This document shows, in pieces, positions 14,596 through 41,500 of a DNA stretch of 64,000 nt. Source of the DNA: Telopea speciosissima (Eukaryota > Streptophyta > Magnoliopsida > Proteales > Proteaceae); assembly GCF_018873765.1 (NCBI RefSeq), contig NC_057919.1, positions 67,388,984 to 67,452,983 on the forward strand, given 5' to 3'. Position numbers and translations under genes: made by a program. The notes under the pieces were generated by a model. That model was given only the letters and a program-made list of their open reading frames with translations, was not told the origin of the DNA and did no database searches. Every line of letters begins with the position of its first letter. The stretch's first letter is position 1.

Positions 14596-17500
14596 ATGAT
14601 GCAGACGTTTCCAAGCAGATCCAGCAGATGGTGAGATTCATCCGCCAAGAGGCGGAGGAGAAAGCCAACGAGATCACCGTCCCCTCTGAAGAAGTATGCC
14701 AATTTCCTCCGTGATAGGAAATCACTTTTGGTTTAATTCCTATAAACTGGCAATTTGAACTGATTCCTCTGAATTTCGTATACTTGTTCTCTTCATTACG
14801 TATCTGAAGATTCACATATACTGGTCTAGTGTCAGTGTTGGAAGTTTAATGATATCAACTGTTCCCCTCTCGATTACTTGGGACTGCTTCTGCAGATACC
14901 ATAAATACGGATATCGGTGGTGACAATTGTTCTTTGTTGCAGGAGTTTAACATCGAGAAGTTGCAATTGGTTGAAGCTGAAAAAAGGAAGATCAAACAGG
15001 AATATGAGCGCAAACAGAAGCAAGTAGAAGTTCGGAAGAAAATGTAAGTCTCAAGCTCACTCTGCCACTTCCTCTCTTTGTGTCTCTCGATTTGGCGTTA
15101 TCCTTATTGCCAACTTTGTTACTCAGTCCTCATTTCAAACAATTAATTCAACTGGAAATGTAAATCCCTAGCATCGTGGTTGAGATTAATTTAGTTTTGT
15201 TACTTCCAGATTATGATCATAGATTTTGAGTAGATGCTAGACCGAGTTATTATGCATATGCAGGTTAACTTCTGTAAATGTGTAATTTTCATACATGGTC
15301 AATCTAAGTAGTCACCCCTTGTACAAGCCATTTGTATGGGATGATGGTTCGAAACATATATGACCTATGCTCAGTATTAGTTGTTTCTTTAATTAATGTT
15401 AAAACTTCTTACTCATACCAGCTATACTTTGTGAAGCAGCTTATAAGATGGACCACGTTTGCTCTCTTTTTCTATTTCTGTCTTAATTCGTATCGAGTGT
15501 GCTCTTGCTTATAGGCATTATTCATGCATATCATATACTTGATCTGTTTCAATCCAAGAGCAACCCTGGTTCATTTCTTTATAATGTAAATATTTTTTTT
15601 TAGCGGATATATAATAGAGAATGAGATTATGCGGAAAAGTTACGCCTCTGTCATTTCACCGATATATTGTCATGCATTGGTTTCATTTCTTTTTCATATT
15701 ACAAATTTAAACTCTTCAAATTTGTTTCACACTGAGAATACTCAATGCAGCTCAATGCTTCTCGTATCAAAGTTCTTCAAGCACAAGATGACGAGGTTAA
15801 CTCCATGAAGGAGGCAGCATCGAAGGACCTTCTGAGCTTCCACAACCACCCTGCATACAAAAATCTTCTGAAAGACCTTATTGTTCAGGTCAGTACCTTG
15901 GAGATTTGATGTTCTATTTATGTGTAGATTATTTTTTTAGGAAATTATGGAAACATATCTCCAAAAATTCATCCAAATTTCATCATTCCTTCATCTTCTT
16001 GCCCATAAAATCACATAGACAAAACAAATTTTTTTTTTTTTTTTTTGGGAGGGGGGGGGGGGGGGGTGAGGGGCAATTAAGATGCATAGAAATAAGAAAA
16101 TGGGAATTAGAATTTGTGATGAAGTTATTTGAAGAATCTAAACATGGTCAAGAATCTCACTTATTTGTTTTCAAGAGGACATCTCCAAGGATTTACGAAT
16201 ATATCTTTTCCGATCTCAACCTTTAAGAGAGGAAAAAGGGGGGAGAAAAGAGAATCCTGATCTTTATATAAACCATAGATATCCTGCCTGGGAGTACATT
16301 TGCAAGAACGAAACTCGAAGGAATTGACCGGGGCTTGCACAAGCGGTGGACATAGTTGTCATGGCGTCGCCATGGCGTCCTGGCGCTGGAGAGGGTTGCA
16401 TGGCGACCTACGCCATGGCGTCCCTCTTTGATTTCTTCTTCGTCTCTGTTTCCCTCTTCGATTTCTTCTTCCTGTCTTCGATTTCTTCTTCCCTCTTCGA
16501 TTTCTTCTTTCCCTCTTCAATTTCTTTCGATTTCTTCTTTCCCTCTTCGATTTCTTCTTCGATTTCTTCTTCCTATGTTCTTTCCCTCTTCGATTTCTTC
16601 TTCCTGTCTTCTTTCCCTCTTCGATTTCTGAATTTTCTTCTTAAAACTTGAGAAACAATAGAGAAAAAATAAAACATGGCTTGAGTATACATCTATTAAC
16701 ACATTAAAAATAGAGAAAGAAAAAAAAAAAAAAACATGGTCGACATGCTCGCCATGGCGGGCGACATGTCGATATATCGACGTGACACCCCTCCACCGAC
16801 TTGGATCGCCGTGACGCCGTGACAACTATGGCGGTGGAACATGTGGTTTAATTTGATGCAAAATGAAGAACCTTACCAAGGCTTGACATGCCGCGAATCC
16901 TCTTGAAAGAGAGGGGTGCCTTCGGGAATGCGGACACAGATGTTGCATGGCTGTCGTCTGCTTGTGCCATTTGATTCATGTAACAGGAGAAAGATTTCCC
17001 ATTACTTAGCCGGAAAGATATGTGGTCATGAAAGAGGGATTAAGTGGAACAGAATTGACGGGGTAGTAGAGTCGTGGAAACACTTGTTTCTTCCATATTT
17101 TGGACCTTAGTTCCATGGAACAATATGCTACTGCTGAAACATGGAAGAATTGAAATCTTAGATCAAAACACTATGTATGGATGGTATAAACTGCCTAAAC
17201 AAGAATTCTTGAACGGCGAACAACCAGAGCCTATTATTCACTACATCCAAAAGTTTCCATTAATGAAATATGTAAATCCATTGGAAAATAAAAAATACGC
17301 ATGTCCGATGAAATGGTTGTTGCTATCTATTCCAATAAATTGAAACATTTCCAAAAGTCATCCAAATTGCTTCATTCCTCCATCTTCTTGCCTCTAACAA
17401 TCACAAGCACATATGCATAGACATAACAAAAATTTGTTTTTGGGGGAGGGGGGACGAGGGACGGGGAGCAGAAAAGATGCATAGAAATAAGAAAATGGGA

Positions 17501-20500
17501 AGCAGAATTTGTGATGAGCTACTTTGAATAATATAAACATGTTCAGGAATCTCACTTATTTGTTGCCAAGAGGATATCTCCAAGGATTTAAGAATTTCTC
17601 TTTTCTGATCTCAACCTTTAAGAGAGGAAAAAGGGAAAAAAAGAGAATCCTGATGTTTATATAAACCATAGATGTATTGAATATAATAAATTAAAAATTA
17701 TTACTTAAATGCTAAGTAGTGAAATTTCATACAAAAATATTTTTTCTTGTTTTACTTGCAACAACAAACTCAGCCTTATCCCAACTTAATGGGGTTTGCT
17801 ACTTGGATCCAAACAAAACAAAGTAGGGAAAACTGAGGTCTAAACAAAACAGGGGAATGAAGAGATGGGAAAAGAGGTGTGGGTAATGAGGTGAGAAATG
17901 AACAAAGGTAAAAGACTAATGCAAGATGGAAAATAACAAGAAAAATGGAAGATGAAAGTAAGAGGAGAGAGGCACAGCCCAACAAGTCAAGAGAATCTCA
18001 GCTAAATGGGGTTTGCTACATGGATCCTTGCCCTCCAATAGGCTCTATTTGAGGTCATACTTTGTACAAGACCTAGTCTATACATGTCCTTTCTTACAAC
18101 TTGTCCTATGGTCATTTTAGGCCTGCCCCTAGCTCTTTTAGCTCCTTCAATCGGGATTATATCATTCCTCCTTATTGGGGAGCCCCTAGGCCTCCGTTGA
18201 ATATGACCATACCACCTCAAACGACTCTCTTGGAGCTTGTCATTTATTGGGGCAACTCCCTTGTCATTTTTTCTTATTTAACTTTCAACTACCAAATCTT
18301 GATGCTCTGATTTTTCAGACCAAACATCAACCTATAGATTGAAATTACATTACCTTTTAATATTTTAATAAAATTTTCTTCATTGTAAAAATGAGAAAAG
18401 GGAAGAATATTAATGTAGGGCTAAGAACCTGAAAAGGTCTAACCCCTGGGAGGATCACAAATATAGGCTCAAATTGCGGTGAAGTAAGAGAAGATAATAA
18501 CTCACAAACCAGCAGCAATGAGCAACTGCTATTGTAGTCGATTAGGGCCCTGGATGAGGGAAAGAAACCCAAAACCTGATGCAACTCTGATCAGCCAAAT
18601 AACAAAATCAATCTTGTCTGTCAGTGTTCTGAAACCCTATTTTGGTGAAATCGATATGGCTGAATAATCTTCTGAATTCCAGCAACTGGTGTAGATCTTC
18701 AATAACAGCAGTAGTAGATGATTAAGGGAGAAGAATAACCAGCAGTAATGCAGCAACTTCTTGTTGACTCAATTCACATAATAAAGGATGGAAGGGGAAA
18801 TAAGAAAGTGAGTCCCTCACCCTAGCTCTCACAGCCAATCCTTTCACTGGACAATCACTTGCCAAAGCAAAGCAACTCGAATTTTATTAACTCAAATCTC
18901 TCCTGCTCCTAAGAGCTGATCACATATATATAGCCCAATGACTGAGACGAAATAAGCAAATTAGAAACTAGACTCTATCTAGGATTCCCAATTAGGATTA
19001 CAAACTCAAACATAACTAGGAAACTAAATAAAAGTCTAATAATAAAAATAAAACCTAACATTAACTCCTCTAAGCCAGCTGTCCAGGTGGGGGCCCATAT
19101 CACTGTTCACGTGAACAGTGCCACATGAATAGTACTTGGGTGCTATTCACGTGAACAGTGTTACCATTTTCTTCATGCTTTGATCTACATCAACTCTCCC
19201 CCCACTTAAAAGAAACTCGTCCTCGAGTTTTATAGAATTTAGGGGCAAGTCTGGTGTGGTGCACGTTCATTTTCACCCCAAAACAGTACTCTGGCAGCTC
19301 GTGGATGTTAGGAATGTAGTCTTCATGGCATGAACTTTCTCTTCAAAGAACTCTGGTGGCATGATGAACTCTTATGTGCTTGACTTTGAAATCAACAATC
19401 GTGTCCATGGGGTCTTCTACAGGTGTGTCTTTGACCTTGTTTGCTTCAAACTCTAGCTTTTTATGTTCTTTTTTGTAGCTAACAGTCTCTTCAATGGTTT
19501 CTTCAACCACCTCGTCAACTATAGTATCAAGTTCCACATTGTCCATTGCCTCAACTTTACTTGCTTCAAAATTCTTCAATGTAAGCCTCGCCATTCAAAA
19601 CATCAAGGACTGACTCTTCCTTGACGACAAAAATTTCTGGAACGTCTTCGACATTAACCTCAACTTCATGTTCTGGTTCTTTGCTTGGAGGTTCTTTCTC
19701 TTGTTGCTTTTCCAACTTCAACGACTTCCACGGTTGCATCCGTTGGAGGTGGAGGGCGGTGGGGACCATGGCTTTACAAGTTTGCTGAAGGTCATTTGGC
19801 CTTTTAGTTGCTTCATGCTCTCTTCAAGTGTAAATACCTTCTGGTGGTAATCTTGTTGAAGTGAAAACTTTCTGCATATATGTTCCGATAGGTACTTGTT
19901 CTTCAACTCGTACTACATCTCTTCCCAAGTCCTAGGTTCACATCTTCTAACTCTAAGTCTCTCTTCATGAGATTTCCACCATTGTTTAGCATAACCAGTT
20001 AATTGAAAGTAAACAAACCTAAGCTTATGCGCCTTTTTTGGGTTGTGCCAGTCAAAATATTCTCTCTAGAGAATCCAACCAATCAAGGAAGAAGAATAGA
20101 TCCCTCTGCCCAGCAAGGGAAGGAACTTCTGACTTCATCTTCCTTGTATTAACATCAACCCTACGAGGTGAAACGCTTTGATACCAAATAATGTAGGACT
20201 AAGAATCTGAAAAGGTCTAATCCCAGGCAGGATTGCAAATATAGGCCCAAACAACAATGAGGTAAGAGAAGTAATAATAACTCACAAACCAGCAGCAATG
20301 TGGAACTGCTATTGTAATCGAGTAGGGCCCTGGATGAGGGAAAGAAACCCAAAACCTGATGCAACCCTGATCAGCCAAATAACAGAATTGATCTTGTCTG
20401 TCAATGTTCTGAAACCCTATTTTGGTGACATCGATATGGCTGAATAATCTTCTGAATTCCAGCAACTGGTGTAGATCTTCAATAGCAGCAGTAGTAGATG

Positions 20501-23500
20501 ATTAATGGGGAATAATAACCAGCAGTAATGCGGCAACTTGTTGTCGACTCAATTCACATAATAAAGGATGGAAGGGGGATCGATTAGATTGATGGAAGGG
20601 AAATAAGGAAGTGAGTCTCTCACCCTAGTCCTCTCGCCCTAGCTCTCACAACCTATCCTTTCACAGGACAATCACTTGCCAAAGCAAAACAACTCGAGCC
20701 CCTGCTCCTAAGAGCTGATCACATATATATAGCCCAATGACTGAGACAAAATAAACAACTAGACTCTAACTAGGATTCCCAACAAAATAGAAACTAGAAT
20801 CTAACTAGGATTCCCAACAAAATAGAAACTAGACTCTAACTAGGATTCCCAATTAGGAGTACAACTTAAACATAAATGGGAAACTAAATAAAAGTCTTAT
20901 AATAAAAATAAAACCTAATATCAACTCCTCTAAGCCAGCTGTCCAGGTGGGGCCCATATCACTGTTCATGTAAAGAGTGTTTTACCCTTTTCTTCATGCT
21001 TTGATCTACATCAAATATATAAGAGTTTCAGAAGCTTCCTGCCTCGTCTAGTCTACAAACATCATATGACATTCTCAGAAGAATTGCAATATTATTATTG
21101 TAGGGGTAGGGTACTGATGTCCCAACCTACAAAAAGGATCAAGGTACTGATAGCCGGCAGAACAGTATGATAAAAAAAAAACTCAGAAATAGCAACTGCC
21201 TAGATTTAGTTACTACCAACTTGGATGGATATGTTGGTCCAGTCGTATGTAGGGTACCAGGGGTAGGTTACCTCTTCAAAGTTACGGCCAAGTTAATGCC
21301 CAAATTAGAAGGTGAAGGTTCAGAATTAGAAACTCAGTACTTGAGAAGACTCTAACCATTGGATGGTCAAGAGATTTCAATCAAAGGAAAATTAGGGCTG
21401 TGGGAGAAACATACTAAAAGTTGAGCCTAAATTACTGGTTGAATGGCAGAATTCACCACTGAATATTGCTGTCCAGAAACACAGAATAGAAGGTGCTGCA
21501 GGTCTGGTCCTTCTTCTAATATTCAGAATATCAAATGGGAATGATGTCTCCAGTAAAAGGTTAACAGCACTGCTTGAACCTCCTTAGATGGTCTTGATAC
21601 TACCCAATAAAACTCAGTAACAGTGAAACAAAATAAAAGCAGAAAAGAAGATGGTAAAGAAGAAGGGAAGAAGGATATGTAGGCAAGGATTTAAGTATCG
21701 GTATCGGGTATCGTATCGGTCTGGCGATTTTAAGAGAGGCGTATCGTATCGTATCGGAGATACGTGTCGATCGGTGCAGAAGCGCATGAAAATGATCAAA
21801 ATACACATGAAAATACACTTTTGGACAATAAAAACAATATAAACAAGCAATTTGTGTCATATATCATGCATATATACTAAGAATTGTGAATAATCAATAA
21901 CCAGACAAGTGCGGCACATTGAAATTGTTATAAAAGATTAAAAGATGAAATTTCTTACTTGTAAAGTCACTCAATTGCCATGAAGAATGTCGAGGTGGAT
22001 CAAAGTCATGTCTGTAAGGGTCTTCAACAATAGGAGTGACTATTGTGATAGATTTTAGGGTAAATATATAATCTTCTTGGAATGTGATAGATCTATACAT
22101 AATATAGTACATATATTATATACATTAGCATTTGTTTTAAATTTTAGAAGAAAATAAAAAAAATCATTTTAAAGAAGCAATTTTCGGTTTGGGTAAAAAT
22201 GCAAAGAAACATGGATTTTGAACTCAAATCTTTGTAAATGTATACAAAGAATGCAATACTAAGTTAGTTTAACATATTCCCTTTGAATCATAACAAAAAA
22301 ATACCAAAAATCAAAGATTTAAACAAAAGAATCAAGTTTTTTTCAAAAAACCTACCTTGCCCTTCAAGAACACCTTTTGATTTCAAATGTGGGCTGTTAG
22401 ATGCGGCAAATGATGAGATTTCACCTCCTTTAGGATCGTTTTTGGAAAAGGAATCAAAGCCCTCAACAAATCTTTGGCAAAAACCAAGTTTAAAGATGTT
22501 TTTTTATGGTTTCTCAAAGCTGGAACTGTTTTTTTTCTGCCAGCCTGCTCCTGCTCGAATTTTCTGTTTTGAGAAGACTTGGGCCCATGTGGTTTTAAGT
22601 TTGCCGATCGTATCGAGGCGTCTCGGTATGTATCGATATGTATCGGTCGATACATATCGATACATACCGAGACGTCTCGTCACGTCTCGATATGTATCGT
22701 TATTTCAAAAATAATAAAATAATGGTTTAAATCATGTCTCATCTCGTATCGTCACGTATCGACTACGTATCGTATCGATATGTATCGGTCGATACATACC
22801 GATACATTCGAGACATTTGCATTAAAAAAAAGATATGTCTCGACTGTCTCGTCTCGGCCATGACCGATCACGGACGTATCGGCGAGACGATACGATACAC
22901 TCCGATACTTAATTCCTTGTATGTAGGTATCTCACCTACTGTAGAGAAGGTATCCCACCTATCTCTACAAGAGCCTCTCACCATACTCTCTCACAGAGGC
23001 CAGAGCAACTGTCTCTCACAGAAACATGGTTGTAAAACAACTCTTTTTTTTCTTTCTCAAATCGTTGCCTTTGTCCAGTCATTTTCTTTATTAAATAACA
23101 AAGCAACCATTACAAATATTGTTAACGTCGAAAATAGAAACTACTGCTATTCTAAGCTCTCTCTTCTAGAAACATTCGAAATTAGAAACTAAGACTCCAA
23201 TAATGTTATTACATAAAATGGAAAATCAACTTTCTAAACCTGAAAATAGAAACTCAAAATAGAGAAACCTAATATTCTTAATGACTGAAAAACAGAAAAT
23301 AGAAACTAACTTTTAGTCCCATATAGGATCTAAATCCCTAATAGTTGGGCTTATAGAATTGGCCCATTACAATAGTAAACTAAAAAATATAAAGCCCATG
23401 GCCAATACAACCCATTGGACACTCAAAATACATATATTAGTCCATTCTTGGTTTAGTTTGATGGCCTGGTTGGTGCTGCCCGTCTTGTTCTCTTGAACTA

Positions 23501-26500
23501 CATCAGGCGTGATAAGAAAATGGCTAAATTGAACTTAGGTTAATATATTTTGAATTTTACGTTGTTATAAAACTTACAACGCAATGTTCTCTCAAGTTTT
23601 AATCTCACACTCACCTAGCGAGAGAAAAAACCCAGTGATGCTGCTGAGGAACAGCCCGGCCTCGCGGTCAGGTTGCTCCTCCCCACTCTTCCTCCCTTCT
23701 CCTTCTCTCTTTCTCCCCAACTCTCGCCCTACCTTCCTTTCTTCATCCTCCTTTTCTTTTTCCTCTTCTTCTGGTTTGGAGTCTGGCAGTGAGGTCAGGC
23801 TCCTCCTTCGCCTTTCTCCTTCTGTTTCTCTCCATTCCTTTCTTCCTCCTCTTCTTTCTCCTCTTCTTCAGGATTTGGAGCTTGGTCTCCTTGTTTGGAC
23901 CTGCGTAGAGCTTGCAGTCATCATACTTGTCTGCAGTCATGCTTGTCTACAACCCTCTTGGTTTGTCGTTTTCGTGGACGACTGTCTTGCTTTGCTTGCT
24001 GCCTTGCAAGTCGCCCTCCCTCTAGGCCTGTTTCTAGGCTCGTTGGGGTCTCTCCTGCCTGGTCGCAATGCTTCGTTGCCTTTTGTCTCCGACAACCGCT
24101 CACTCTGCTGGGTCGCCTCCCTCGCTGGCAGCCTTCTTTGCTTGGCTTGCTGGCCCGTCTCTTCGCCTCCAGCCTCATTCGCCTTCTCTCTCCCCGGACG
24201 TCTTGCATTGCCAGCACCCTCAGCTGTCGCTTGGTCGCCAGCCCCCTTGGACTGCAGTTGCTTGGCCGCAAGCCTTCTTGGTCAGTCTTCTGTCTGATCC
24301 GCCTGGTTCGCTCAGCTAACGCCATGTTACTGGCAGCCGCATAGTCTGCCTTCTGCAAGCTATGCTCGGCCGGCAGCTGCTTCACTGTTACCCTCTGCAA
24401 GGCCGGTGCCTCTGCGACGTGGCTGTCACCTTCGCTTGGCCTGCTTCCCGCTTGGCGTGGTCCTCCGCAAGGCCAGCGTCCCTCTGCCGTGGCTGTTCGT
24501 TTGCTGGCGATGCTCCATTTTTCCGTCTTGGTGGCTGGTCCAAGTTGTGCTGAGATAGTTGGTTAGGGTTTTTGCTTCCCTACCATAGTCCGAAATCTCG
24601 CGAGATCTCGCTGAGATTCTCGGTTTTTTCGAAAGCCGAGACGAGATGTGATACGAAACTTAAAAGTGCAGATTCTCGGTAAGATCTCGACTCGATATGG
24701 CTTGAAAAAAATGTGAAAAAATGGAAGGAGAAGTCCAAAATCTCGCTGAGATCTCGCCGAGAGATCTCGGGTCGAGATATGGGTCTCGGGTATGGGGGTG
24801 GGTCATTTGACCCAAATAACTTGTTTTAAGTCAAAGAGAAGTGTTTTTGGGGCTATTCTATCGACAGAATAGACCCCTTCTTCTCTCCTACTCTCTTCTT
24901 CTCACCAACTCTCTTCTTCTCTCAATCTTCTCTTCCTTTCTTCATTATTTGGTTGGATTCAAACATTTGGAAGGTGAATTTGGTGGCAAAGTGAAGATTG
25001 CAGCTCAATATTGGAAGATTGCTCAAGTTTGTGAAGGTTTTTGGAAGGTAAACCCATTTTCCATAAACCTATTTTTTTGAAAAAAAATTGATGAAATGTT
25101 GGTAGATGGGTTTGATTTTGAGTTATGTTATACAAGTTAGGCCGATCTATGACTTGATGGAGGCCGATTTTTTTTTGGGTTATTAAATTATTTATTATAA
25201 TTTCTGGAAAAAAAATGATTTATTTCAAAAAAAAAAAATTAAAAAAATACTTATTGTTTGGATGTGATCTTGAGGTATGTTAGACTACTTTGCATGCTCT
25301 ACAGCCTCATGGAGGCATTTTTATTTTCACCCATTAAAAAAAATAATTTATTTTTCAGATTTAATAATAATATTATTTAAATAGTTAAAAAATATATAAA
25401 ATTAAGGGTTTTTTACAATTACCACCCCAAAATCTTTACTATCTACTATTACCCCAAAACTTTCAAACAAGCTGCATTCATTCCCCCTCCGATGCATACT
25501 AACCACTAATTCCCCCCACCGTTACATTTCCGTGAATTGGTGCAGGATAGTCATAAATGACAGTGTGCCGCCGTTGTCACGAATTTTCTAGGACCAAAAT
25601 GCCCTTTTGAGGTGTTAATTGTTAAAAAAAAAAAAAAAAAAAACCATCACCGTCCTCCTCCTCCTCCTCCTCCTTCTTCTTCTTCTTCTTCTCCTTCTTC
25701 TTCCATGGCATCGGTTGCAGACAAGACGACATAGACTAGGACGAAGGTACCAATGATCTCAACACCAAGACCATCATCCTTTGTGTAGCCATGGCTGACT
25801 TCGTTGGCTCCACCACCCAACATCTGGTATTGAATATTTTGGAAGCCTTTCACAACACCGGCACCACAGATGGCTCCAAGGCATTGCATCACCATGTAGA
25901 ACAATGCCCTGGTCAAAGATAGCTTCCTTGCCAAGAATAAACCAAAGGTCACAGCTAGGTTGATGTGTCCTCCTGCACCCACAACATCCATCAAACTCTA
26001 ATATTTCAGGAACAAATCAAGAACAAAACAAACCCTAAATGAAATTGTATAAATCAAGAACAAAACAAAACCGAAACTGGAAAATTATAGGAGAGAAGAG
26101 ATAATGAATGAAATTTCTTCCTTTCTCTCCGATTGGACTGTTGAAGATTAGCATTCAGAAGAGGGTTCTCTCGCTTCTGTTCCGATTTCCTTACCCTCGT
26201 CCCCGAGCTCCGCATCAGCAGCCAAGATGCCAGCGCATAAAACCTTGAAAATCAAGAAGAAGCTCACGAAGAAGATGAGGCAGAACAGGCCCATCCCTCA
26301 TTGGATCCGCATGAGGACCGATAACACCATCAGGTACAATGCAAAATGTAGGCATTGGCGCCGCACAAAGCTAGGGTTTTAAGGTGTCGTGAGCTGCCCC
26401 CTTTCTGGGTCAAATTAGAGTTGTAGGTCTTGCAAGAGAATGGCAAGTTACTGTTTATTGTAATTCGTTCGTTAATTAATTGGGAACTCTAACGAGTCCC

Positions 26501-29500
26501 TAAACCAGATTTTGTTGTGATTGATGTTTGTCTCTTTGTGGCGGAATATTTTGAACAAGAGGGTTAGTTCAATTTTATAATGGCTTTTGAAGAAAAAAAA
26601 AAAAAAGATTAGCATTCAGAAGGAATCATCATCACTAACATCTCCTTCATTTTCTGGTCCATTGAAGCCTTCCTAAGAGAGCTCTCCCACCATCACTCTT
26701 CTTGCCCTTTCCACTATTGTGTTTCCAGAGGTAGGAGACGACCTCTCCAAACCACCTCTTCCATGATTATTTTGTGCTTCCATATGTACCAAGGTTTGAC
26801 AGTTGAAGGACTAGAGAAGGAGCAGGGAAGAAGAAGCATAGAAGAAGTTATTTGCACAGATGGTCGCTGCCGGAGCAAGAGGTGTTTGCCGGAGAAGGAA
26901 GCCGATGTTCTAGTGAAGAGGAAGGGTTTGGATGAAGGGCATTTTGGTCCGATATATTTTGTGACAACAGTGAAGTATCACTACTAACCCCCTCCGTTAT
27001 GGGTCTGTAACGGTGGGGGTCAGTTAGTGGTTAGTATGCATTAGAGGGGGGTAACAGTTGTTTGAAAATTTTGGGGGGGGGGTAAAATAGTAGATAGTAA
27101 AGATTTTGGGGTGGAAAAATACCTGTTTTTGTTGGAAAATTATGCACAACAGTTGTAAATAATGTCCAACTTCAAATGATGTCAAATACATCATTATGTC
27201 ATAATATTTTATATTTGAAGGTATAATTACTTTTAATAAAAATTATAAATATTATTTATAATTAAAAAATAAATACTAGGGTTAGGGAATAAATAAGAGA
27301 TAGGTATTTGATTGTTGTAGTAGCTTCATATTATGTTTAATAGTTATAAATATAATACTTTAAGTGTTTAATACCTTACTTTAAGTCTGTAATAGTTACT
27401 AATACATGTTTTTTTATGTAACAGTGTAAAAAATAAGATATTTCTTACACAATGGGGGATATAGCATGGTTACATGGAGTCCCAATGTCTGAGGACAAAA
27501 AGAAGTCAAAGTGTAACTACTGTGGGAAGATTCTAAATTCTGGAGGAGCAACTAGGTTAAAGGAACATTTGTCTGGTCTGGGCAAGGATGTTGCCAAATG
27601 CAAAAATGTTCCGAGCCAAGTGAAACTGGCAATGACACAAAATATAAGAGGAGTACGGACAAAGAAAGCTGAGAGAGAAAGACACAAATAGCTTTCGATG
27701 AAGCAGTGCTAGAGAGGCCTGGCGTAGACATCCGTGGGGGAGTAGGAGATGATACTGAATATAGGCCTACACCTGGTGAGTTCGAATCAGAGGCTGAATG
27801 GAGGATTTACCAGCAGACTTTGGCAACGAGTAGGTAAAGTTTTCATTTTGACAATATCAGAGCATATGAGCAAGCAAGAGGAGCTGGTGGATCTGGCTCA
27901 GCTGCACCAGTGCAAGAAGATGAGAGGAGGAGAAGCACTGGCACGAGATATCCCACGGCCCCAAGTCCGACCATGAGCACGATCCCCAGATACCATTCTT
28001 GAGCAGGATCCATCTACCTTTAGGCAACAAGATGCCTTCTAGCCAACCATCCCACAAGTGTATGGTGGTAAACAAGAGGATGCACGGAAAGCCTTCTGCA
28101 AGTTCATGTTATACAATAGCATTCCAGCTAATGTAGCACAAGGAACATATAATAATGCATTCTTTGATGTTGCAGGGAGGGCTGGCGTAGGATGGAAGGG
28201 GCCTACACCATATGAGTTGTATAATGTGTATTTGCCTAAAGAGGTAGAGGAGCTGAAAGAGTACATAGAGGGTCTGAAGCCAAGGTGGGACACATATGGG
28301 GTTACTCTTTTGGCTGATGGTTGGACTGGATCTACTAGACAGTCCATTATAAATTTCATGGTGAGTTGTAATGGGAAGACTGTCTTCTTGAAGTCTGTTG
28401 ATGCATCAAAACATGTCAAGGATGCATCATACTTGTACAAGCTACTGAAGCAAGTGGTGGAGGAAGATATAAGAGCAAAGAACGTTATCCAAATTGTGAT
28501 GGATAACGGTTCTAATTTTAAGAAGGCTGGAGAGAAACTGATGAACAAGAAGAGTAAGAGGATCCTCCTCTTTTGGACTCCATGTGCAGCCCATTCTATT
28601 GATCTAATGCTGAAGGACATGGGGAAAAAAGCTTTGGTGGCTGGTGTGGTCAATAGGGCAAGGCAAGTGACCACCTTTGTGTATAACCATGGTTATGCTT
28701 TAGCCTTGATGAGGGAGAAATGCAAGGGGGATTTAGTGAGGCCAGGTGTCACTAGATTTGCCACCAATTACATTGCATTGAAGAGCATCTAGTCAAAGGT
28801 GATAGGTCTGAGGTTAATGTTTACAAGTGACCAATGGTTTACTTGGCCAGGCTCTAGGACACAAGAAGGGAAGGCAGCACAAGAGACCATTGCAAGTGAT
28901 GGATTTTGGAATGACTTGTATAAAGTTGTTGCCATATTAGAACCAGTGGTGGCAGTACTAAGGATGGTTGACATAGAGAAGAAGCCTACCTTGCCCCACA
29001 TATATGCTGCCCTGCAAAAGATGAAGGAAATGGTCCGAGCTGCAATACCCTGAAGTGCGCGCTCATACATTAACATCATTGATGAGCGATGGGAGAAGCA
29101 CTTGAGTCATCCCTTGCATAAAGCTGGTGAGTTCAACACTTCAACATCTATACACTTTATATGAGTTTTTACATTTATGTATGCAAACCTCTAAAGTATT
29201 CAGTCACTAACAACTTATATTTATGGTTTCCCCTTTACTAGCATACTATTTGAATCCAAAGTACCAGTATTCGCATGATCTTGGGCTGGACACGGATTTG
29301 TTACTTGCAGTTGAAAATGTTATTGAGAAGTTGGAGGTCAATCCCAAGACACAATCTAACTGCAATGATGAGGTGAGACTATGGGACTTTGGTATTTTGC
29401 TAGTCAGTAAAGGAATGTAATTACTAAATAGAAAATACTGATGCCTCGAACACTGTTTGAAATTTCAAATGTAAATAGATCAAGGCCTTCAGAGAGGCCT

Positions 29501-32500
29501 CAACAAGTTTCGGTCGAAAATCTGCAGTGGAGGGTAGACAAAAGTCAGACCTTGGTAGGTGGCAATATGGCATGAATTTACATATATGACTTATAATTTT
29601 ATCCCTTTACAATTCACATATTCTTAATATTCTTTGTTTATAATGCAGCTGACTGGTGGGTGCTGTATGGTACAAGTTCACCAAACCTGAGGAAGGTAGC
29701 AATCAAAGTGTTGTTACAAACTTGTTCATCCTCTAGCTGCGAGCGCAACTGGAGTACATTCGCCTTGATACACTCAAAGAGGCGGAACAGATTGGGTAGT
29801 CAACGACTGGAGCAACTGGTATATGCGCATTATAATATGAGATTAAGGATGAGGCACATACGTGAAGAATTTGAGAAGAATGACAAAGAGCCCATCGAGC
29901 TAGCCAATATATTCCAGGAGGACTCTGATGATGATGAGGATCCCCTATTCCAGTAGGTGAGGGATCGTGGTGTACCAGAGATGGATGAGCCTGGAGGTAG
30001 GCCTGACTCCACCATTGCGTCCATAACCGGCATAGATGTTGAGGACTATATGTCGCAAGAGGGGTGTGCACATTCTCAGTCACCGAAACCATTTGAGGCT
30101 GCAACAAGAACTCCACCTGATGATGATGATGATGGTGATGATGGTGATGGTGATGGTGATGGTGATGACCCTCCTGCTGGTAGTGGTGGTGGTGGTGGTC
30201 GTGGTGGTAGTGGTAGTGGTGGTGGTGGTGGTACTGGTGGTGGCATGCTTGCTGGTGGTTATTATGATGATACTCATGAGGGGATGCGTGAGTAATAACA
30301 ATATGAAGTGGGAACACAGCAGGACCCTGTCCATTTCACAGGTGAGTCTCAGTTTACACATGTCACACACGATCAAGACCATGGTGGCCACAGCAAAACT
30401 TACAAGAGAAGGACGGGTCGCAAACATAATCAACCTCAGTATGATGACACGAGTGTGAACACCATGCTAGCAAGTTTTGGAAGCATGAGTATGGATACTG
30501 GTACTCAGCATCAGTCGTGACAATCATCTCAACCTCATTATGACTATGATTATGGCCAGCAGAGCACCGGTTCGGAATATAGTTCCTATGGTCAGTTTAG
30601 GCAGTCAACACATGCGTATGACTATCAAAGCAGTGACTCTGGCATTGGGTCCAGCATTGGGTCCACCTATGGGTTCACATTCCCAGTCCCATACATTCCT
30701 CAATATGACAGTGGCATAAGCAGTGGATCTCAACCTTCACAGCAACAGTCTCACGTCAGTGTGGAACAGCTATACCCTAGGATAGGGGTCTAGGAATATG
30801 TGGATCAGAATTCTTATACGAATGCTGTGGAGAACTATATGCAACAGTGGAGCAACAGTATGTCATGGGAAGATTATGTGGGACAATGTGGGACTGAATA
30901 TATCATTAAATCTCATTTTATGTGATGTTGGTTGTAACTTGTAACATTGTTAAACATTTGTAATGCTTATTAAGTTGTTTTCCTATTAATTGAATGTTTT
31001 GTTTGAGCCCTATATACATAAATTATGTCAATAATGTATATAGTATGTTATTTTAATACGTCTTCGCCTACCAACTAAGGGTCCGATGTAAAAGTCCTAT
31101 TTGGACTTTGTTTTTGCAAAATCTAATAATGTCATTATGTTTAAATGGCCTAAAATAAGCTGTGTACCAATTTTCAGACCCAACAGAGCCCTAAAACCCA
31201 CCGAGATGGGCTTCCGAGTAAAAAAAAAAAAAAATTTTACAAGAACTCGCCGAGATCTCGGCCCAACTCGGTTTTTTTAAAGGCCGAGTTGGCCCCGAGA
31301 CCCGAGTTTTCGGACCATGTTCCCTACCTAGAAATTACTTGGTTGCCCTTCTCCTTTTGTTGTGCTTGTGGGCTTTCTTCTCTGGTTTTATGCCCACATG
31401 GGCTTTGGATTTTACAGGCCTTACCTCCTCTCAGGTGGGCCTTATAATTTGTTTATGGCTTTGTGACCTTGTACGCTCTCTCTCTCTCCCCCCCCCCCTT
31501 TCTTTTCTTTGGTAATGAATTAAATTATTTATTAACTAAAAAAAAAAAACTTACAATGCTTTTGCTCATTTTGAATTTATATATATATATAAAAAAATTT
31601 TGATACTGTATTCAATAATATAATGGAAAAATATCCATGCAATTGGCTAATATAATTGTATGGTTTGCTTCTCTTGCAGAGTTTGATCCGACTGAAAGAG
31701 CCTGCTGTCCTATTGTGTTGTCGGGAAGATGATCTATATTTGGTTCAATCTGTTTTAGAGTTAGTAGAGCTGGAGTATGCAATGAAAGCACTTGTTCAAA
31801 AACCTGAAATTATCATTGACGAGCAAGTCTGTTTGCCTCCTGCTCCTACCCAGCATCAGGCCCATGGACCTTTCTGGTAAAGTTTTCAATCTATCTGGAG
31901 CTGTGAACAGATCCTTCGGAGAATTTTGCTAACAGTTTTGTTTTCTTTCTTAATCTGTAATTTACGTCTTTTATAATCTTTGACCTGCTGCATTTTTCAT
32001 TTGAATATGGGGCCATTATCACCAATATCACACCAGGAAACATATGGGGTCCACATTATAGAGGACCACACACCTATCTAATTAGTCGAATTTCGTCCCA
32101 AAACAAGTATTATATTTGAGTCAAAATTTTGGGACAAAGTTGTGAAAAATTACAGAAATGCTATTACCCTCTATCTCTCTATATGTTGAAAGTTATAGCA
32201 TGCTTATTATTTTAAACCATGTTTTGCCCCCTATTACATATTCATATTTGGCTGAAACTGCACTAGTGACTAGTGGGATGGATGTGACTTGTGAGATCCT
32301 TTGTCACATGAGGATCCACCTATATCCATTGAAATGTGCCACATGGTAAAAGTCTCCTCATGAACTTGATGACAATTCATTAATGTTCATGACATAAATT
32401 TCCCCTTTTAATATGTGTCACCCCTTTTTGTTGTAATTTCATATCTTTGGATATGAAGTTGGTTAAAATTCAAAATGCTTTGAATTTTATGTGTTTTTGT

Positions 32501-35500
32501 TTTCTGTGCTGGGGTCAGCATTGGTATGGTCTTAATCAGACTTTAGATGCCCCATGCAAGTTGCACCAGGCACAGGTTTATAGCATGTCTGGCAAGTTAT
32601 GCATGTAAGTCTAAAATGAATACATGAGGTTAATCAGTAGGCTCAATGTTCTGATCTAGAGGTTCTAAACTCATTGATTCATTAAAAATTATTGGTTTGT
32701 ATTTCTACCATTGTCTTTTCAGTAAGTAAATTGATCTTACGAGTAAAGGAATTGTAAATTCATTTTAGTCGTGACTGTTTATGGAATCATGAACAAACAG
32801 GGTTTGTGATGTCTTTTTGTGTTTTGTACACTTGAAATGAGGAACTCTTTATATCCTTCAGGTTTACTAATGTCTCTCTCTTGTATTATTGAATTGGATG
32901 TTGTAGCCAGTTGGTATACTTGAGTATAAATCCTAGTACTTTTTTTTGGAAAGAAAAAAAAAAAAGAGAAGAAAATAAATCCTTGCCTAGGCTGTTATCA
33001 CTTAGATTCCATTCGGCTAGGATGCCTGGTTATCTAGGCATTGCCTCTTTCTCATTCAAGGCTGGTTTCATCAATAACAATCCTGAGCCCTATTAAATAT
33101 TGCCAAAGCCGAACCTGTCTCATCCCATGAGGCATGAATGGGACTAATTTTAATTGCAGTGTAACTTTTTGTTTTGTGGGGAGGGGGGATTGTGATTAGT
33201 TACCAAAACCCAACCCTAACCCATAAAGTGTCATACCAAAATTAACCACTGGGAGTGGAAGTTTAATGCATGGAATTTAATATTTGATTAAAATTTTTGA
33301 AAACCAAGAATGTAAATTGGAAAAGCTTAGATAGTTGATTCCAGATATCTGGGTTCCACCAAAGACGTGCCTGCCCAAAAATAATATCAAACCTGAGTCA
33401 GCTAAGCCTTTTTTTCAAAATTTCCAATTGCTTGGGACCCCAAAATAAGCATAGGCAAAAGATACATCTTGCTTCATTTATGAAGGTGCTAGCTGGCTCA
33501 GCTTGTAAAGTGTTTGGCATGTTGTAATGAAGACCTGGGTTCAAGTCTTGCCTCCACCTTACTACTTTTCAAAAAGAAAAGAGCACAGAGATGTGATATT
33601 TTCTAGTGACTAAACCATGCGTCTGCACTCTGTGCTGTGTAGATCATGGATTTTTGACTTACCTTCTTAATTTTGAGTGAATTATGCGTCTTCAAATACT
33701 TTGGGGTGGATCATTTTGAACATTTTGAAAATTGTTAAAGAAACCAAAAGAAAGGAGAGTGGGGAGAAGATAGGTCTCGGATTCTTAGTATTAAGTTTAA
33801 GGGTATTTTTGTCTTTCTAGTATTTGTGGCTCTACTTCCCAGCCTTACTGTAGAGTCGTGGGGTTCAGGGGTTTGCACATATTTTATTTCGTTCATTATT
33901 ATAAATATAAGGGAGCTGTCCTGCGGCTGTGCTCTTCTCTTGGATAGTTTGCTTCTCCTCCCTCTTTCTCTCTAATCTGATTGCAACGCCTTGATATTGT
34001 AACATGGTATCAGAGCACTTGTAATCAGGTCTGAGATTTTTTTTAATCATTCTCTGTTGGTTCTGTTTTTCGATTCTCACCTTGTGGTGTGCAGCCACCT
34101 TATGCTGCAATTATTATGAAGTAATCACTCCTCTTATTTATTGAGTGCACTGTACCTGTTTCTGCTGGAGTATCCTAATGCTGATTGAAGTCTACATTGA
34201 ATTCTGATCTACTGTTGATGTATCAATCTCAGGCTGAATCCTGTAAATTCGATCTCTCTTGTGTTGTTGGTTTTGGTGTTTTTTTTTTTTTATGGAGCTT
34301 ATGGGTCTGTGGCTCCTGGTTGCTGCTGTTGGTGATGCTACTTTGTCTTACATGGTTCTCCACTATTTTTAATTTTGATTTTGACTTCTTCATCAAAACC
34401 CTGGTACATCCGTTTCTTCCTGGTTTGTTTTCTGGCATTGCTCTATGGTGGTGAAGCCTTCCCTATTGCTGGTTGTGTATTCCAGCATCTCCTTTTTGGT
34501 GATTTGGGCTGCTCCTGTTCTTTTTCAATCCAAATTGATTTTGGGTTGTCATAACCTTGCTTCATATTGTTTTTATTTTTGGATATATTATTTTTCTTGT
34601 GACATGGCTGAGTCCAAGAATATTATGGACAATGTTAATGTCCAGATTACTTCCATCAAGCTCAAAGGGAGCTCCAATTACCTGCTTTGGGCTCAAGCCG
34701 CTCGAGTTTACATCATGGCTAAGGATAAGCTCCGTTATATTACTTTTAAGTCTTCCCACATCTGATTCTAAGGATTATAATGAATGGGTTAAGGACAATG
34801 CAATTATTCTTATTTGGTTATGGAACAACATGGAGCCCGATATTGCAGCCAATGTCATGTTCCATACAGCCAAGGGAGTGTAGGATGATTTGAAGGACAC
34901 ATATTCCCAAGAAAAGAGTATGACTTGCATCTATGACTTGTATGAGAAGCTGTTCCAACTTCAACAGTCTGACAAGTCTTTATAGGCTACATTACATTCA
35001 AAGGAATGGATGAAGAGCTGAATGTGTTTCAGCCACTTACTAAAGACATTGAGAAGCTAAAAGCCCAACGGAATGAAAATTTTTCTCTAAATTTCTTGCT
35101 GATATGAACCCTAAATGACATTAAAAATAGAGAAAAAAATTGTTGATGTCAATATGTGATTGTGTATTAGTCAATAGTGTATTAGTGTTTTCTGTTTGAT
35201 GTTTTTTTAATTTTTTTTATGTTAAGGAAAAAGCATTAAAATAAAAAATGGTTAAAAAAATTTATTGTTAAAAAATCAAGTTTTGTAATTTGAAACAACC
35301 ATGTCGCCCGATATGGCCATATGTCATGGTATGGTGTCCATGGCGGCGCCATGGCAACGACATGGAGGCCATATCAGTCGATATTCTTACATCATCCATA
35401 TTGGTGGTTGATATACCCACTTCTCCAGCGATATGACGCCATGGCGCCGCCATGACAACTATGATATTGATTTTTGATGACTTGATGTGACTTAATGTTG

Positions 35501-38500
35501 ATTTTTTATGATATAAGGTAAATATTGTAGTATACTAAATAATGTTAGAACAAGGGTAAATAAAAAATAACACTTGGCGCCTTGGTTGCCTAGGCAACGC
35601 CTAAGTGGGTGCCTTCTGCGCTTAGGCACCCCTGCACTCCCTTGGGTCGCCTTGCTGCCTTGAGAACTATGATTGAGAGTGTTGACTCATTATTACTCAC
35701 CATGGCTGTAGGAATTTGCTCTGATACAAATTTGGTGCAATCCTGGTTTGAGAACCCAATTCGGATTGCTTATAGGCCCACCCAAATTTAATGAAATAAA
35801 CTAATGATTACATCTAATGTCAATTACCAGCCCCTTCAGACTAGAAAACCGGATTCTACTGGGTTCGTTTCGGCTTAGGTCTCCAAAGAGGGTCATTGCG
35901 GTCCAGTCAAGCCAAGGCAACTGCATCACTTTTCTTTCTCTTTCCCTTTTTCTCCTCTTCAGTCTTCACATAATCTATATTTACCATAAACTTGCTTGAC
36001 TTCAAAATTTAGCTTCCATTTTGGAAGTTGGAACCTTTCTTGCTCCAGAGCATGCATACATTGTTTTTTTTTGGGTTGGGGGGGGGGGGGGCATGGGGAA
36101 GTGGGCAGTTGGTAAGTTCCTTGAGTGTTGTGCAATATATCATATTGCTCCCCAAGGTAGAAGATTTCTTTCTCCTTTTTGATTTCCTCAACTGGGCTCT
36201 GGCTGAAAGGTCACCCATGAATTAAATTTGTTAACCATGTGTGCAAATATTGGATAGGATCCATTGAATATGGTGTATCTGAGGCTGACAACCATCATAT
36301 GACTTCTTGAGATCAAATGGATAGCAATTTTATTATTTGTTGGGTTGTTTCTAAAGTAATACTTTTTTGTTCTTAAATTGGCTTTGGAACTAATGTCACC
36401 AGATATTTTATAAACTGAATTATAAACAATACATGGTTTTCATTCTTTTCTTGGATGTTATGAAAAAAGATAAATCTTTATGATTTGTTTTTTCTTGAGC
36501 TTGACAATTCTGAGACTCATGAATCATTTGTAGTTTTTATGATTTTGAAATCATGATGTTGATATAAAATAATTTGTCTGATGATAACCATTGCTTATGC
36601 AGCTCTGGAGGTGTTGTGTTAGCTTCTAGTGATGGCAAGATTGTTTGCGAGAACACCCTTGATGCAAAGTTGGATGTGGTATTCCAAAAGAAACTGCCAG
36701 AGGTATCATCTCACATGCCAGTTAAGCTTTTATATTGTTTTCATCTCGTTACTAACATATTTATGTTGTTGGGGTTGCTTGCATTGCTCTATTTGGGAAT
36801 GCTTTTGTGCCCTGGCTGTGAGAACCTTATTCATTATTGTGCAAACGTGATATAATTTGCAAAAATAAAATGGACAGGACAGAAAATGCTTCTGATGCTT
36901 TGTAATGCAAACATTCTGTTTAAAACAAAAATCATCTGTTGTGTTTTCACCAGTTTCATATTTTCTACTTTTTGGAAAGATGAAGAGATCAGATTAAGGG
37001 ATGAACAGTTTTTAAAGTTGTAGTTTATCGCAACATCTTTCCAACATCACAGTTGAAACTGGTTGAAACCTGTCTAGTTAAGGGATTTTTTAATGTCACA
37101 GTTGATCTCATCTAGGTTTCTTGCAAAACCGAAATATCTCGGTCAAAACTACAAGTTTTGATTGAGAGATAGAATTGATGGAATTTTGAGGAATTGAATT
37201 TATGTCGATGTGACCCAAGCCTTCTTTATTTATAATATATCATATGAAGTACAAGTTACAATTATAGGCCTTAAGGCAACACAAGCTAAAACACTACTAG
37301 ACAAATATACCTTTGTACCCATATTACAACACTCCCCGTCAAGTTGGTGCATAGATATCAATCATGCCCAACTTGCGAACAATAGAAACAAAACTCTTAG
37401 TGCTCAAACCTTTAGTGAATACATCAACTAACTGACCATCAGATGGGACAAATGGAATACAGGTCAGACCCTGTTCCAGTTTTTCCTTGATAAAATGGCG
37501 ATCCATCTCTACATGTTTGGTTCTATCATACTGGATCGGGTTGTAGGCAATGCTAATTTCTGATTTGCTGTCAGAATACAGACGCATGGGCAGCTCAAGA
37601 GGGAATTCAAGATCTTGAAGCAACCCCCGAAGCTAGAGTAGCTCACAAATGCCATGGGCCATGGCCCAAAACTCTACTTCTGCACTTGATCGAGCCACAA
37701 CTGCATGCTTCTTGCTTCGCCATGTAACTAGGTTACCACCAACATAGGTATAGTAACCAGATGTAGATCTCCGATCATCTGGGCAGCTCAAGAGGGAATT
37801 CAAGATCTTGAAGCAACCCCCAAAGCTAGAGTAGCTCACAAATGCCATGGGCCATGGCCCTAAACTCTGCTTCTGCACTTGATCGAGCTACAACTGCATG
37901 CTTCTTGCTTCGCTAGGTAACTAGGTTACCGCCAGCATAGGTATAGTAACCAGATGTAGATCTCCGATCATCTGGGCAGCCAGGCCAATCAGCATTTGTG
38001 TAGGACTCAATGCAAAGGTGGTTATGAGATGAAATGAGGACACCCTTACCAAGTGCAGCCTTTAGATATCTCAAGATTCGATACACAACATCTATATTCG
38101 ATGAATAGGGGTCATGCATGTACTGAGTCTAGCAAAGGCGATATCTGGTCGAGTATGAGATAAATAAACGAGTCTTCCAACTAGCCTCTAGTAGCTACCC
38201 TTGTCAACAGCCTCTGGGAATTAGGCTCAACAGGAGTGTCAGCTGGTTTACACCCTAGCATGCCTGTATTTGATAAGAGATCAATAATGTATTTCCACTG
38301 TAAGAGGGAAATCCCTTGAGCTGAATAGGCTACCTCTATGCCCAGAAAATATCTCAATTTTCCCAAGTCTTTAATCTCAAACTTTGTGCCCAGGAACTTC
38401 TTCAAGGAAGAGATCCCTTCAATGCTATTCCCAGTTATGACAATGTCATCTACATAAACAATCAAGAGAGTAATATGGTCAGCTTCCTTTTTATGAACAA

Positions 38501-41500
38501 AGCATGATCTACATACTTTGTTCATAACCGATGGAGACCATAGTTCTATGAAACTGACCAAACTAGGCCCTAGGAGACTGTTTCAGTCCATACAAAGCTC
38601 GGTTAAGCTTACAAACTTCCCATGAGTTTCCTGGGATATAAATGATGTAGATTCTGGTCAGAAGAAGAAACAAAAGAACCAAGGTGGTTTGAGCCAGCCT
38701 CATGTGGACCAACTTGGACCAATTCGAACCAGCCAAGAAGACCAGCTTGAGCCAGCCAGCTGACCTTCTAGAAGAGGCCTTTGTTGGCCATGATTTTGGT
38801 AGGAGATCATCTCCAACTACCTAGTTGCTAATTTATTTAGGGGAAGCAGTTTCTGTCCAGGAGTATGGCCTACGCCAACACTCTCATGTGTCTATCTCTC
38901 TCCTTAAAACAAGGGGGCAGAGCTGTCTATTCATATGGGGAGCATAGTTCGAGAACTCGCGAGATCTCGCCGAGTTTCTCAGATTTTCGAAATCCTGAGA
39001 CGAGATTGCCTGCGAGTCTCAAAAGTGCAATATCTCGGCGAGATCTCGGATCTGGGTGTGGATCTCAATTTCGACCCTTTTTTTACCCCACCTACCACTT
39101 AAGTACCTTACCTAACTTGCCAAAACTCGACATATCTCGGCGAGATCTCGGGTCCAGATCTCAGGTTGACCCAAAGTTGAGGCTTTGTGTTAGGAAAAAA
39201 AAAATTCACCAACTCGGCTCGTCTCGATTTTTCCAAGAGCCGAGTTGGTACCAAGACCCGAGTTTTAGTAACCATGATGGGGAGGAGAGAGATAGACTCA
39301 TGGGAGTGCAAGCGTAGGCCACACTCCCGAACATAGTTCTTTTTCCCTTTATTTAGTTTCTATTTTAGTGTCCTTATTTGTTTTACAAGGCTGAGCTATA
39401 AAGCCTAGTAGTTTCTAATTCTAGTTTCCTTCTATTTTAGTTAGGTTTTAGTTTTTCTATTTCCCTACTTGCTATTTTAGAAAGTTTCTATTTTTATTGT
39501 AAGCTTGCCTAAGCTATTAATAGGCCCCTTATTGTAAGGAAGGATAAAAGTACAGATTGATTGTATGAGAGCTGACTTGGGAGTTGCCCCAATCAATGAC
39601 AAGCTCCGAGAGAGTCGTTTCAAATGCACTTAATGCACGAGTGATGCATTAAATCAGGCAGAGATTCAGTGTAGCAGTGGTGTACCCTTTCTTCATGCGC
39701 CCAACCAATAAGCTTGCTCGCAAGGGAATCTTTCCTGCGGTGTAGCACTTACATTAAGCGCTCTTCAATCTCAGCCTCCATAATGGAATCAGACGACGCG
39801 CCCGAAAAGGTGTCTAGGGCATAACTTACTCATTTCTCAACATTATTGAGTGCGGTTTGCGACAATGCACTCTTGGCGAGGAGAACCATTACTCTACGTA
39901 TCAAAAGTCAATCGAATGACCCAAAATTGCAAAAATCTCTCCCATTTAGCTTCTTTTCAGCACGACTATACGGAAACTGCAATACCTCCTCTATCCGACA
40001 TCAAAACGACGCACTTCCAATTGCGTTGGAAAGGCGACTCGATGAACTACAATTCTATGTAGATTGCTCCATCCAGTTCTGCCATTTGCCTTCACCTGCT
40101 GCTCCTGTGCACTGCCCAATGCTGTAAAACAATGAGGTTTAGGGAGCTTCACCACAATGCCTGAAGTTGATAAAATGACCAAAATCCCCTTATCAAATGG
40201 CTGAATGCTCTAATTGATTATCTGTTTTCCCAAACACTTCCGGGACATATGTAAGGAATAATATACACTGTAGTGGACCATTTTGGACTGCCACCTGCTG
40301 CCGGACATGCCCACAAGCCTCTGAAACATTGCTCAATTGCCAAGTGTCCATGTTGCACTGCCAAGTCATACACTTGCCATTCTAGCTTTGCCAACTGACC
40401 AATAGCCACTGCCACATCATCTGTGCCACTTATATACTGTCCATCTCAGCCTGGGAACACTACCATGTTATTGCCATGTCATATTGCACACTGTACATGC
40501 ACTGTCATGCCTGCAAATGACAGAGTTATCCCTGGAAGACTCTCAATCACTGTGGGACCTCTGTGTACACTATTAAACACCAGTAATACTATTACTGCAA
40601 TTGTAAACATTGTAAGAACTATTGTGGATCCTGGGAATACTGTCTAGTCATTACCTGCATTACCATAAGTCTGCCAACTCAACCAAAAGGTTGCCTGTGC
40701 TGTATTGACCACTGTAATTGCCCTGGACTGCCAATGAGTACTCCATATATCACTGTGATCCTTGTGACATCACTGTAGCCATCCTGCTAAACCAGTACAC
40801 TGCTGTACATGCTTGTAGTCACTCATAGCCATCTATATTGCCGCTCTACTTACTGAATTGCACCAAGATGCACTGTGTTGACAACAACAACACACATGCA
40901 CTGTGTTGACAACAATGACAACCAACACACAGTCACTACCATCTGCACTGTTTGTTCAACAAACTTCAATCCTTTTACATTCATAAAGGACATTTGTGTT
41001 TTTGCTGATCATTGATTCTATTAGAAGATCATTTCGAATTTCAATGTTAAATTCTATCCCATGGTGTGTACATCTGGTCCAAAAGCAGTAAGTATACCTA
41101 TGGCATGGACATATAGAAAACATTTAGTCGGGGGCAATCATTGCTCTTATCTATCCAAAAAATGTCAGGTCAAAGTACAGGTACCCCCTATGGTCAGAAA
41201 CTTGTCTTCCACCTCCCCCACAACAAAATAAATAAAAATAAAATAAAATAATGATTGTTTAGAAAGAGGTCCGTCAATAAGATGGTTATTATTGCTCGTC
41301 TGTGTTGGTGTTAATACCTATTGGCTATTGCATAACGTAGTTGAGACCAGTAGAATGCAAGTCAATCCCCCATATATTAGCTTACAGTGTGCACTATTTT
41401 TTCCATTTCTGTGCTGTAGTTGATGCATATAGATTTTAGCATTTCTGTAATTATTTATTCATCTGTATGGCAATACCTCAAGCATATTCATCATGTGTTC

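Follow-up and report, generated by a model that had tools for sequence, protein, structure and literature searches.

Subterminal words that follow transposase lineage among hAT transposons of Telopea speciosissima

A 64,000-nucleotide stretch of the Telopea speciosissima genome (contig NC_057919.1 of assembly GCF_018873765.1, forward-strand positions 67,388,984 to 67,452,983; hereafter the window) contains transposons of hAT type that begin and end almost alike and are filled, just inside their ends, with different short words. The question raised by this locus is whether such elements are sister lineages whose transposases have come to recognize different DNA. An initial annotation of three of them, here called E1, E2 and E3, had proposed that they are, and that the tips stayed fixed while recognition diversified. 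We find lineage-specific words on a single transposase family, so that the first part of this proposal is largely supported; the fixed tips are not. It is quite probable that we are looking at a radiation, within one genome, of BED-DUF659-hAT transposons that dock on lineage-specific words, and that these words were altered stepwise.

Elements, transposase lineages and tips

A blind scan of the window for CATRG...CYATG tips with an 8-bp duplication, one mismatch at most being allowed, returned precisely the three elements named in the initial annotation, E1, E2 and E3, each with an exact duplication. Three pairs in the window combine an exact duplication with tips that match at 5 or more of 12 bases, whereas 200 Markov shuffles averaged 0.07 such pairs and never exceeded two; a decoy scan of the real window with reversed tips, run without the tip-match condition, gave one pair. 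Widening the scan tip to CAWRG recovered a fourth element, which the annotation did not contain. The 8-bp target-site duplication characteristic of hAT transposons is exact in all four, and E2 encodes both a BED zinc finger and a hAT dimerization domain (Table 1). The dimerization domain also has tblastn matches in the 28 longer stretches of those fetched from the genome, the other six ending before it.

The genome searched comprises 823 Mb in 1,287 contigs. The DUF659 exon of E2 has at least 150 matches there (150 of the 150 scored, out of 3,298 first-look candidates), and searches with BED and with the Pfam family likewise gave at least 150 each. We examined 36 transposases, taken from 34 fetched genome stretches (numbered with the prefix L) and the window. 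Ends were assigned to 24 of the 36 transposase-bearing elements, both ends in 19 and the left end only in five (L016 and four of lineage F); the other 12 lack assignable ends or were omitted from the word count (L009-L014, the outer element of L018, L027, L033, L039, L041 and L042), L041 being omitted with a degenerate CAAAGCG left tip. The duplications of the 19 two-ended elements are exact in 15, have one mismatch in three (L019, L022, L031) and two mismatches in one (L026).

A tree built from 30 DUF659 rows shows A1, A2, B, C, D and E as one clade apiece, with ultrafast bootstrap values of 95-100, and the supergroups (A,B,C) and (D,E,F) are both recovered at 100; F is a single row in this tree, and the rows of L019 and L028 are partial. 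Mean DUF659 identity is 82% between A1 and A2, 63-64% between A and B, 45% between A and C and 35-37% between A and any of D, E and F, with 73.5% for D-F, 60% for D-E and 65% for E-F. Judged by these sequences, all the elements belong to sister lineages within a single BED-DUF659-hAT transposase family. The initial annotation had named word clusters derived from unrelated transposases as the outcome that would speak against it, and no such clusters arose. As a separate observation, a lineage-F element is nested in a lineage-A2 element at L018:1898 onward, its right end not being found there. At G000:C2:10496699-10497364, two BED matches separated by about 410 bases are assigned to one open frame of 824 amino acids, which may encode a transposase with tandem BED fingers.

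The tips are less uniform than had been proposed. CATAG is present at 25 of the 25 tabulated ends of B, D, E and F, and it is only in these lineages that the tip is fixed. A1 has CATAG at four ends, CATGG at three and CAAGG at three; A2 has CAAGG at five and CATGG at one; and both tabulated C ends have CAAGG. Exact CATAG as the tip of the whole group is thus ruled out, and the presence of CAAGG in sister lineages means that the tip varies too. These elements share short terminal inverted repeats and BED and hAT dimerization domains with the plant hAT families of Repbase. The published tip consensus of hAT elements is (T/C)A(A/G)NG, and that of plants (T/C)AGNGNNG (PMC6027215). CATAG and CATGG break both forms with a T at position 3; the CAAGG tips of A1, A2 and C fit the general form and not the plant form. 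Since the hAT domains and the duplication are present, we read CATAG and CATGG as a variant tip inside the hAT superfamily.

Subterminal words and their arrangement

De novo word counting in the ends of the 24 elements yields distinct words for each lineage, with E and F sharing one. Transposase-bearing elements of lineage A carry 10-15 copies of CGAGAT, those of B 12-19 CGAAAT together with 5-9 CGAGAT, lineage C 24 CGATAC, those of D 5-9 CATGGCG and those of E and F 5-9 CAAGGCG; interiors are nearly free of these words. The cross table of word by lineage is nearly diagonal, and word class tracks the DUF659 tree. The pairing of each word cluster with transposase-bearing copies, which the initial annotation had called for, succeeded within this genome for all five words. 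The same association extends to 35 duplication-bounded elements, a set from which L001 was dropped as identical to E1 and in which L004, L031 and L026 do not figure, their duplications falling below the whole-element threshold. By commonest word, 15 of these belong to D, eight to A, six to E/F, four to B and two to C, and words of the opposite supergroup number at most one in each of the 35. One of the four B elements, L017:993-1474, has eight CGAAAT and seven CGAGAT. The two short elements that lie in tandem at L009:289-612 have identical 8-bp duplications on their flanks (ATGTGAAG); CATGGCG is found at one tip, the words elsewhere being CAAGGCG.

The window elements can be placed by the same means. 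Their subterminal zones are filled with differing words, as had been noted, CATGGCG in E1 against CGAGAT in E2 and E3. The ends of E1 match lineage-D transposase-bearing elements, with 87% identity over 141 bp to the right ends of L021 and L015. The longest end matches of E3 are to A1 and A2 and those to B are shorter, which rules out lineage B as its parent; both window elements with CTCGGCGAGATC, E2 and E3, belong to lineage A. The fourth element matches both ends of the lineage-C element of L025, one of them at 93% over 363 bp, and looks like a deletion derivative. It has 23 CGATAC in its terminal 2 x 300 bp and a longest open frame of 148 amino acids.

Written as 5'-NNNNCG, the words become ATCTCG (A), ATTTCG (B), GTATCG (C), ATGGCG (D) and AAGGCG (E/F), and they are arranged in a common geometry in most lineages. 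A word-blind search for 13-bp palindromes of the form NNNNCG-N-CGNNNN with complementary arms found 32 in element ends (nine in A1, two in A2, two in E3, eight in D, one in E1, eight in E and two in F). There are none in the ends of B and C, none in 72,216 bases of the interiors of A1, A2, B, C, D and E (F being excluded) and none in 54,828 window bases outside elements. The forward-reverse offsets in A and D are +7 and -4, which differ by 11, and 11 is also the commonest same-strand spacing. The +7/-4 spacing occurs 22 times in A1 against 0.93 expected from random placement, and 14 times in D against 0.33; E has eight cases of +7 and one of -4, and F has two of +7. Palindromic repeats near the tip, a trait of the housefly transposon Hermes, are present in A, D and E, weakly in F (two cases), partly in B and not in C.

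The smallest step between words is that separating lineage D from E and F. Alignment of the left ends of D, E, F and E1 yields 35 columns in the first two alignable blocks, of which only columns 12, 33 and 42 distinguish D and E1 from E as well as from F, and each of these three is the base preceding GGCG in a word or word-like site. The exceptions are the E row L022, which is D-like at column 33, and the D row L021, which is gapped at 12 and 33. Further in, column 113 is a fourth word-base site of this kind, at which E1 also has T, being otherwise unaligned there; column 123 separates D from E and not from F, and column 8 sets E apart. The chance that all three differences fall on the word base is 1.5e-4 for one chosen string pair, the motif and the pair having been picked post hoc. 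Since CAAGGCG is found in both E and F, the D/E/F clade probably started from this word, CATGGCG being derived, a direction that we infer from the distribution of the words. The ends available for such comparisons are numerous: the exact tip CATAGTTRTCAWGGCG occurs 5,997 times genome-wide and its reversed control not at all, and the 100 places listed of these 5,997 comprise, by hand count, 47 TTGTCAAGG, 28 TTATCAAGG, 23 TTGTCATGG and two TTATCATGG. The D tip alone occurs 1,673 times.

Other features of the window

The coordinates are collected in Table 1. E2 is broken: a stop codon at 28790-28792 closes its DUF659 frame ahead of the next matching piece. Its length is inflated by a nested insert, which is missing from the four relatives compared (L029-L032). 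The insert has inverted-repeat stretches close to its ends, and contains what we take, by eye, to be a ribosomal-protein L39-like frame near 26230-26380 and an aquaporin-like piece; it may therefore be a gene-capturing transposon.

E1 splits a 16S rRNA-like nuclear copy at about 16260-17106, presumably of plastid type, and its duplication lies within this DNA (Rfam SSU_rRNA_bacteria, 16848-17106). Elsewhere the genome has 16 places that carry the undivided site, with GCGGTGGA present once, at no more than two mismatches, seven of them exact. These are paralogous copies and not the pre-insertion state of the same locus, and they provide an undivided-site control.

Two partial ends that the initial annotation had placed at 35462 and 35674 do contain CATGGCG and CAAGGCG words, and they stop instead at 35463 and 35671. 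No partner end was found for either, and the eight bases following each are not repeated in window positions 30000-36500. The region at about 37200-38650 appears by eye to hold an antisense copia-type polyprotein, one segment of which occurs twice, near 37590 and near 37780.

Table 1. Coordinates of the hAT elements, their exons and associated features in the window
Feature	Coordinates	Strand	Details
E1, non-autonomous, lineage D	16351..16830	+	tips CATAGTTGTCAYGG; 8 CATGGCG; duplication GCGGTGGA
Non-autonomous element, lineage C	21684..22919		tips CAAGGATTTAAGTA / CAAGGAATTAAGTA; duplication TATGTAGG
E2, broken transposase-bearing element, lineage A1	24584..31319	+	tips CATAGTCCGAAA / CATGGTCCGAAA; 12 CGAGAT in terminal 2 x 300 bp; duplication TTCCCTAC
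Foreign insert nested in E2, outside the hAT element proper	about 25407..27113		blastn of four relatives breaks there
BED zinc-finger exon of E2	27437..27691	+	Pfam zf-BED (PF02892), E 3.9e-08
DUF659 exon of E2	28043..28792	+	Pfam DUF659, E 1.5e-46
hAT C-terminal dimerization exon of E2	29597..29956	+	Pfam Dimer_Tnp_hAT (PF05699), E 3.6e-14
Solo lineage-D end	35281..35463		5 CATGGCG; 72% over 163 bp to L015 left end
Solo CAAGGCG-class end	35562..35671		2 words; 80% over 54 bp to L017 right end
E3, non-autonomous, lineage A	38943..39276	+	9 CGAGAT, 2 CGAAAT; duplication ATGGGGAG

Proposed recognition by the BED finger and its alternatives

In the model that we consider probable, the BED zinc fingers of each lineage would dock on many lineage-specific half-sites near both ends, and the catalytic core would act on a short and loosely conserved tip, CAWRG. 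The NNNNCG half-sites of A, D, E and F stand head to head around a CG-N-CG centre, and those of A and D overlap tail to tail as well; the inverted lattice that results, with its 11-bp repeat, would accommodate BED fingers in pairs. Specificity would have shifted by small steps in the four variable bases, with the centre, the CG and the spacing retained. Because non-autonomous copies carry the same words, they were probably mobilized mainly by their own lineage. Binding by the BED finger, its dimeric docking and the residues that would read the variable base are what we infer from these arrangements and from the BED loop.

We aligned the loops by their zinc-binding histidine, not by structural superposition. 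The commonest readings are LGGGATRLKQH in B, LGGGVTRQKEH in C (one readable copy, L025), MSCGIKRLKQH in D, TKGGIKRLKQH in E and L[KR]GGIKRIKQH in F; the commonest A1 loop has 11 residues, as has that of E2, and the first residue of the A2 loop is variable. A, B and the readable C copy have TR against KR in D, E and F, the difference between A/B and D/E/F lying at -5 and -6, and D has SC against [KR]G in E and F, at -9 and -8. Single copies depart from these readings, for example L029 and L032 (GR), L035 of A2 (TG), L027 (GS) and L041 (KGR). By the histidine anchoring, positions -8 to -4 and -1 would be equivalent to residues 63-67 and 70 of Hermes, through which the bases are contacted in a crystal structure with two BED domains on one imperfect palindrome (PMC10368747). 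An AlphaFold model of the E2 BED domain alone was not used, its mean predicted local distance difference test score being 55.6, and a sequence search of the PDB with the lineage-D BED domain gave seven weak matches, the best at E 0.24, none of them BED by name. A recognition code in the BED loop is a hypothesis drawn from these alignments. In its fullest form, which we advance only tentatively, the family would hold a stepwise record of such a code, with a fixed CG-N-CG lattice, outer bases changing between ATCT, ATGG and AAGG (ATTT and GTAT belonging to layouts that are looser or different), a small number of loop residues changing with each step, and sister transposons mutually incompatible behind a nearly common tip.

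Several observations weigh against the model. The loop does differ between word classes, but columns diagnostic of D against E and F are no denser in the BED domain (18 of 92) than in DUF659 (54 of 299), so that the BED domain as a hot spot of lineage-specific change is unsupported, and two diagnostic columns among ten in the loop are near this base rate. In both stretches read for lineage C, the first zinc cysteines normal for a BED domain are missing, C has a direct spacing of 5 or 10 bp instead of the palindrome lattice, and B has the -4 overlap only (12 cases) and no +7. Three of the four transposase-bearing E elements have two CATGGCG each, and two of the 15 elements assigned to D by their words have E-type tips at both ends and mixed words (three CATGGCG and two CAAGGCG in L022:7664-7795, four and three in L025:8985-9135). 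CATGGCG and CAAGGCG may therefore be cross-recognized, and these two short elements are possible cross-mobilized hybrids. The DUF659 tree does not settle the branching order among D, E and F. Copies within one lineage are not independent, which inflates the lattice counts, and through shared descent the 24 elements amount to about seven lineages and few independent word changes.

It is somewhat unlikely, though the strongest of the alternatives, that the words matter and are read by parts of the transposase outside the BED loop, the loop differences being bystanders. The absence of an excess of diagnostic columns in the BED domain as a whole would agree with this, as would the bipartite DNA-binding domain, for subterminal sequences and terminal inverted repeats, that the title of one paper ascribes to the Ac transposase; the Hermes BED-DNA structure (PMC10368747) favours the loop, since it is the aligned loop and helix that contact the bases specifically there. 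A more thoroughgoing objection is that the words are inherited end repeats that have drifted and been amplified locally, and that they contribute nothing to specificity. Word class and phylogeny are indeed confounded, and there are local 11-bp additions between aligned blocks. We nevertheless regard this as distinctly improbable, since the variable word base is all that separates D from both E and F in the 35 alignable end columns, since the CG-N-CG lattice is common to lineages with about 36% DUF659 identity and was not found in interiors, and since the observed/expected CpG ratio is 1.0-2.4 in the ends against 0.36 in interiors and 0.5 outside elements. The CG in each of the five words might also suggest a methylation or silencing signal, or a site for a host factor, not read by the transposase. 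There is very little to recommend this explanation: a host factor is not expected to follow transposase lineage inside one genome, and hAT transposases are known to bind subterminal repeats (PMC10368747, PMC3260210, PMC8097297).

The docking of BED fingers on lineage-specific words would have precedents. The general plan is already exhibited by maize Ac/Ds, which resembles the present elements in its 8-bp duplications, short terminal inverted repeats, internally deleted and filler-bearing non-autonomous copies and subterminal hexamers, the Ac/Ds hexamer AAACGG binding transposase cooperatively (PMC3260210). The Telopea elements differ from Ac/Ds in their words and tips, in their DUF659-type transposase and in having several word classes in one genome, and AAACGG has no copy in the ends of the 24 elements, E1 or E3. 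The BED fingers of Hermes bind many short repeats and are paired on an imperfect palindrome near the tip (PMC10368747), which the layout of A, D, E and F resembles, although the Hermes site is AAG(T/C), against NNNNCG half-sites around CG-N-CG here. Diversified DNA preference of hAT BED domains is also known: among CGGBP and hAT-19 proteins, related hAT-derived BED domains bind differing motifs, and for four hAT-encoded proteins the motif agrees with sequence in their own subterminal regions (PMC8097297). As described in that source, these are animal and fungal proteins, largely domesticated, and not sister transposons of one genome compared at their ends. In the open-licence literature on DUF659 and subterminal hAT recognition, we found no description of such a set among the titles and abstract starts of the best-ranked matches, and the tip strings gave nothing about plant transposons among the titles and abstract starts of the matches listed. 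What appears to be new is the combination of sister lineages in one genome, a common site geometry and small word changes at aligned sites.

How a transposase can evolve jointly with its numerous binding sites is still an open question, since a change in the protein has to be matched at all of them. Since each word has transposase-bearing members, the change of a DNA-binding code should be traceable here in small steps. The coexisting protein-site pairs, including the one-base step between CAAGGCG and CATGGCG, together with the very many ends, are natural test material for the BED recognition code and for lineage-specific mobilization.

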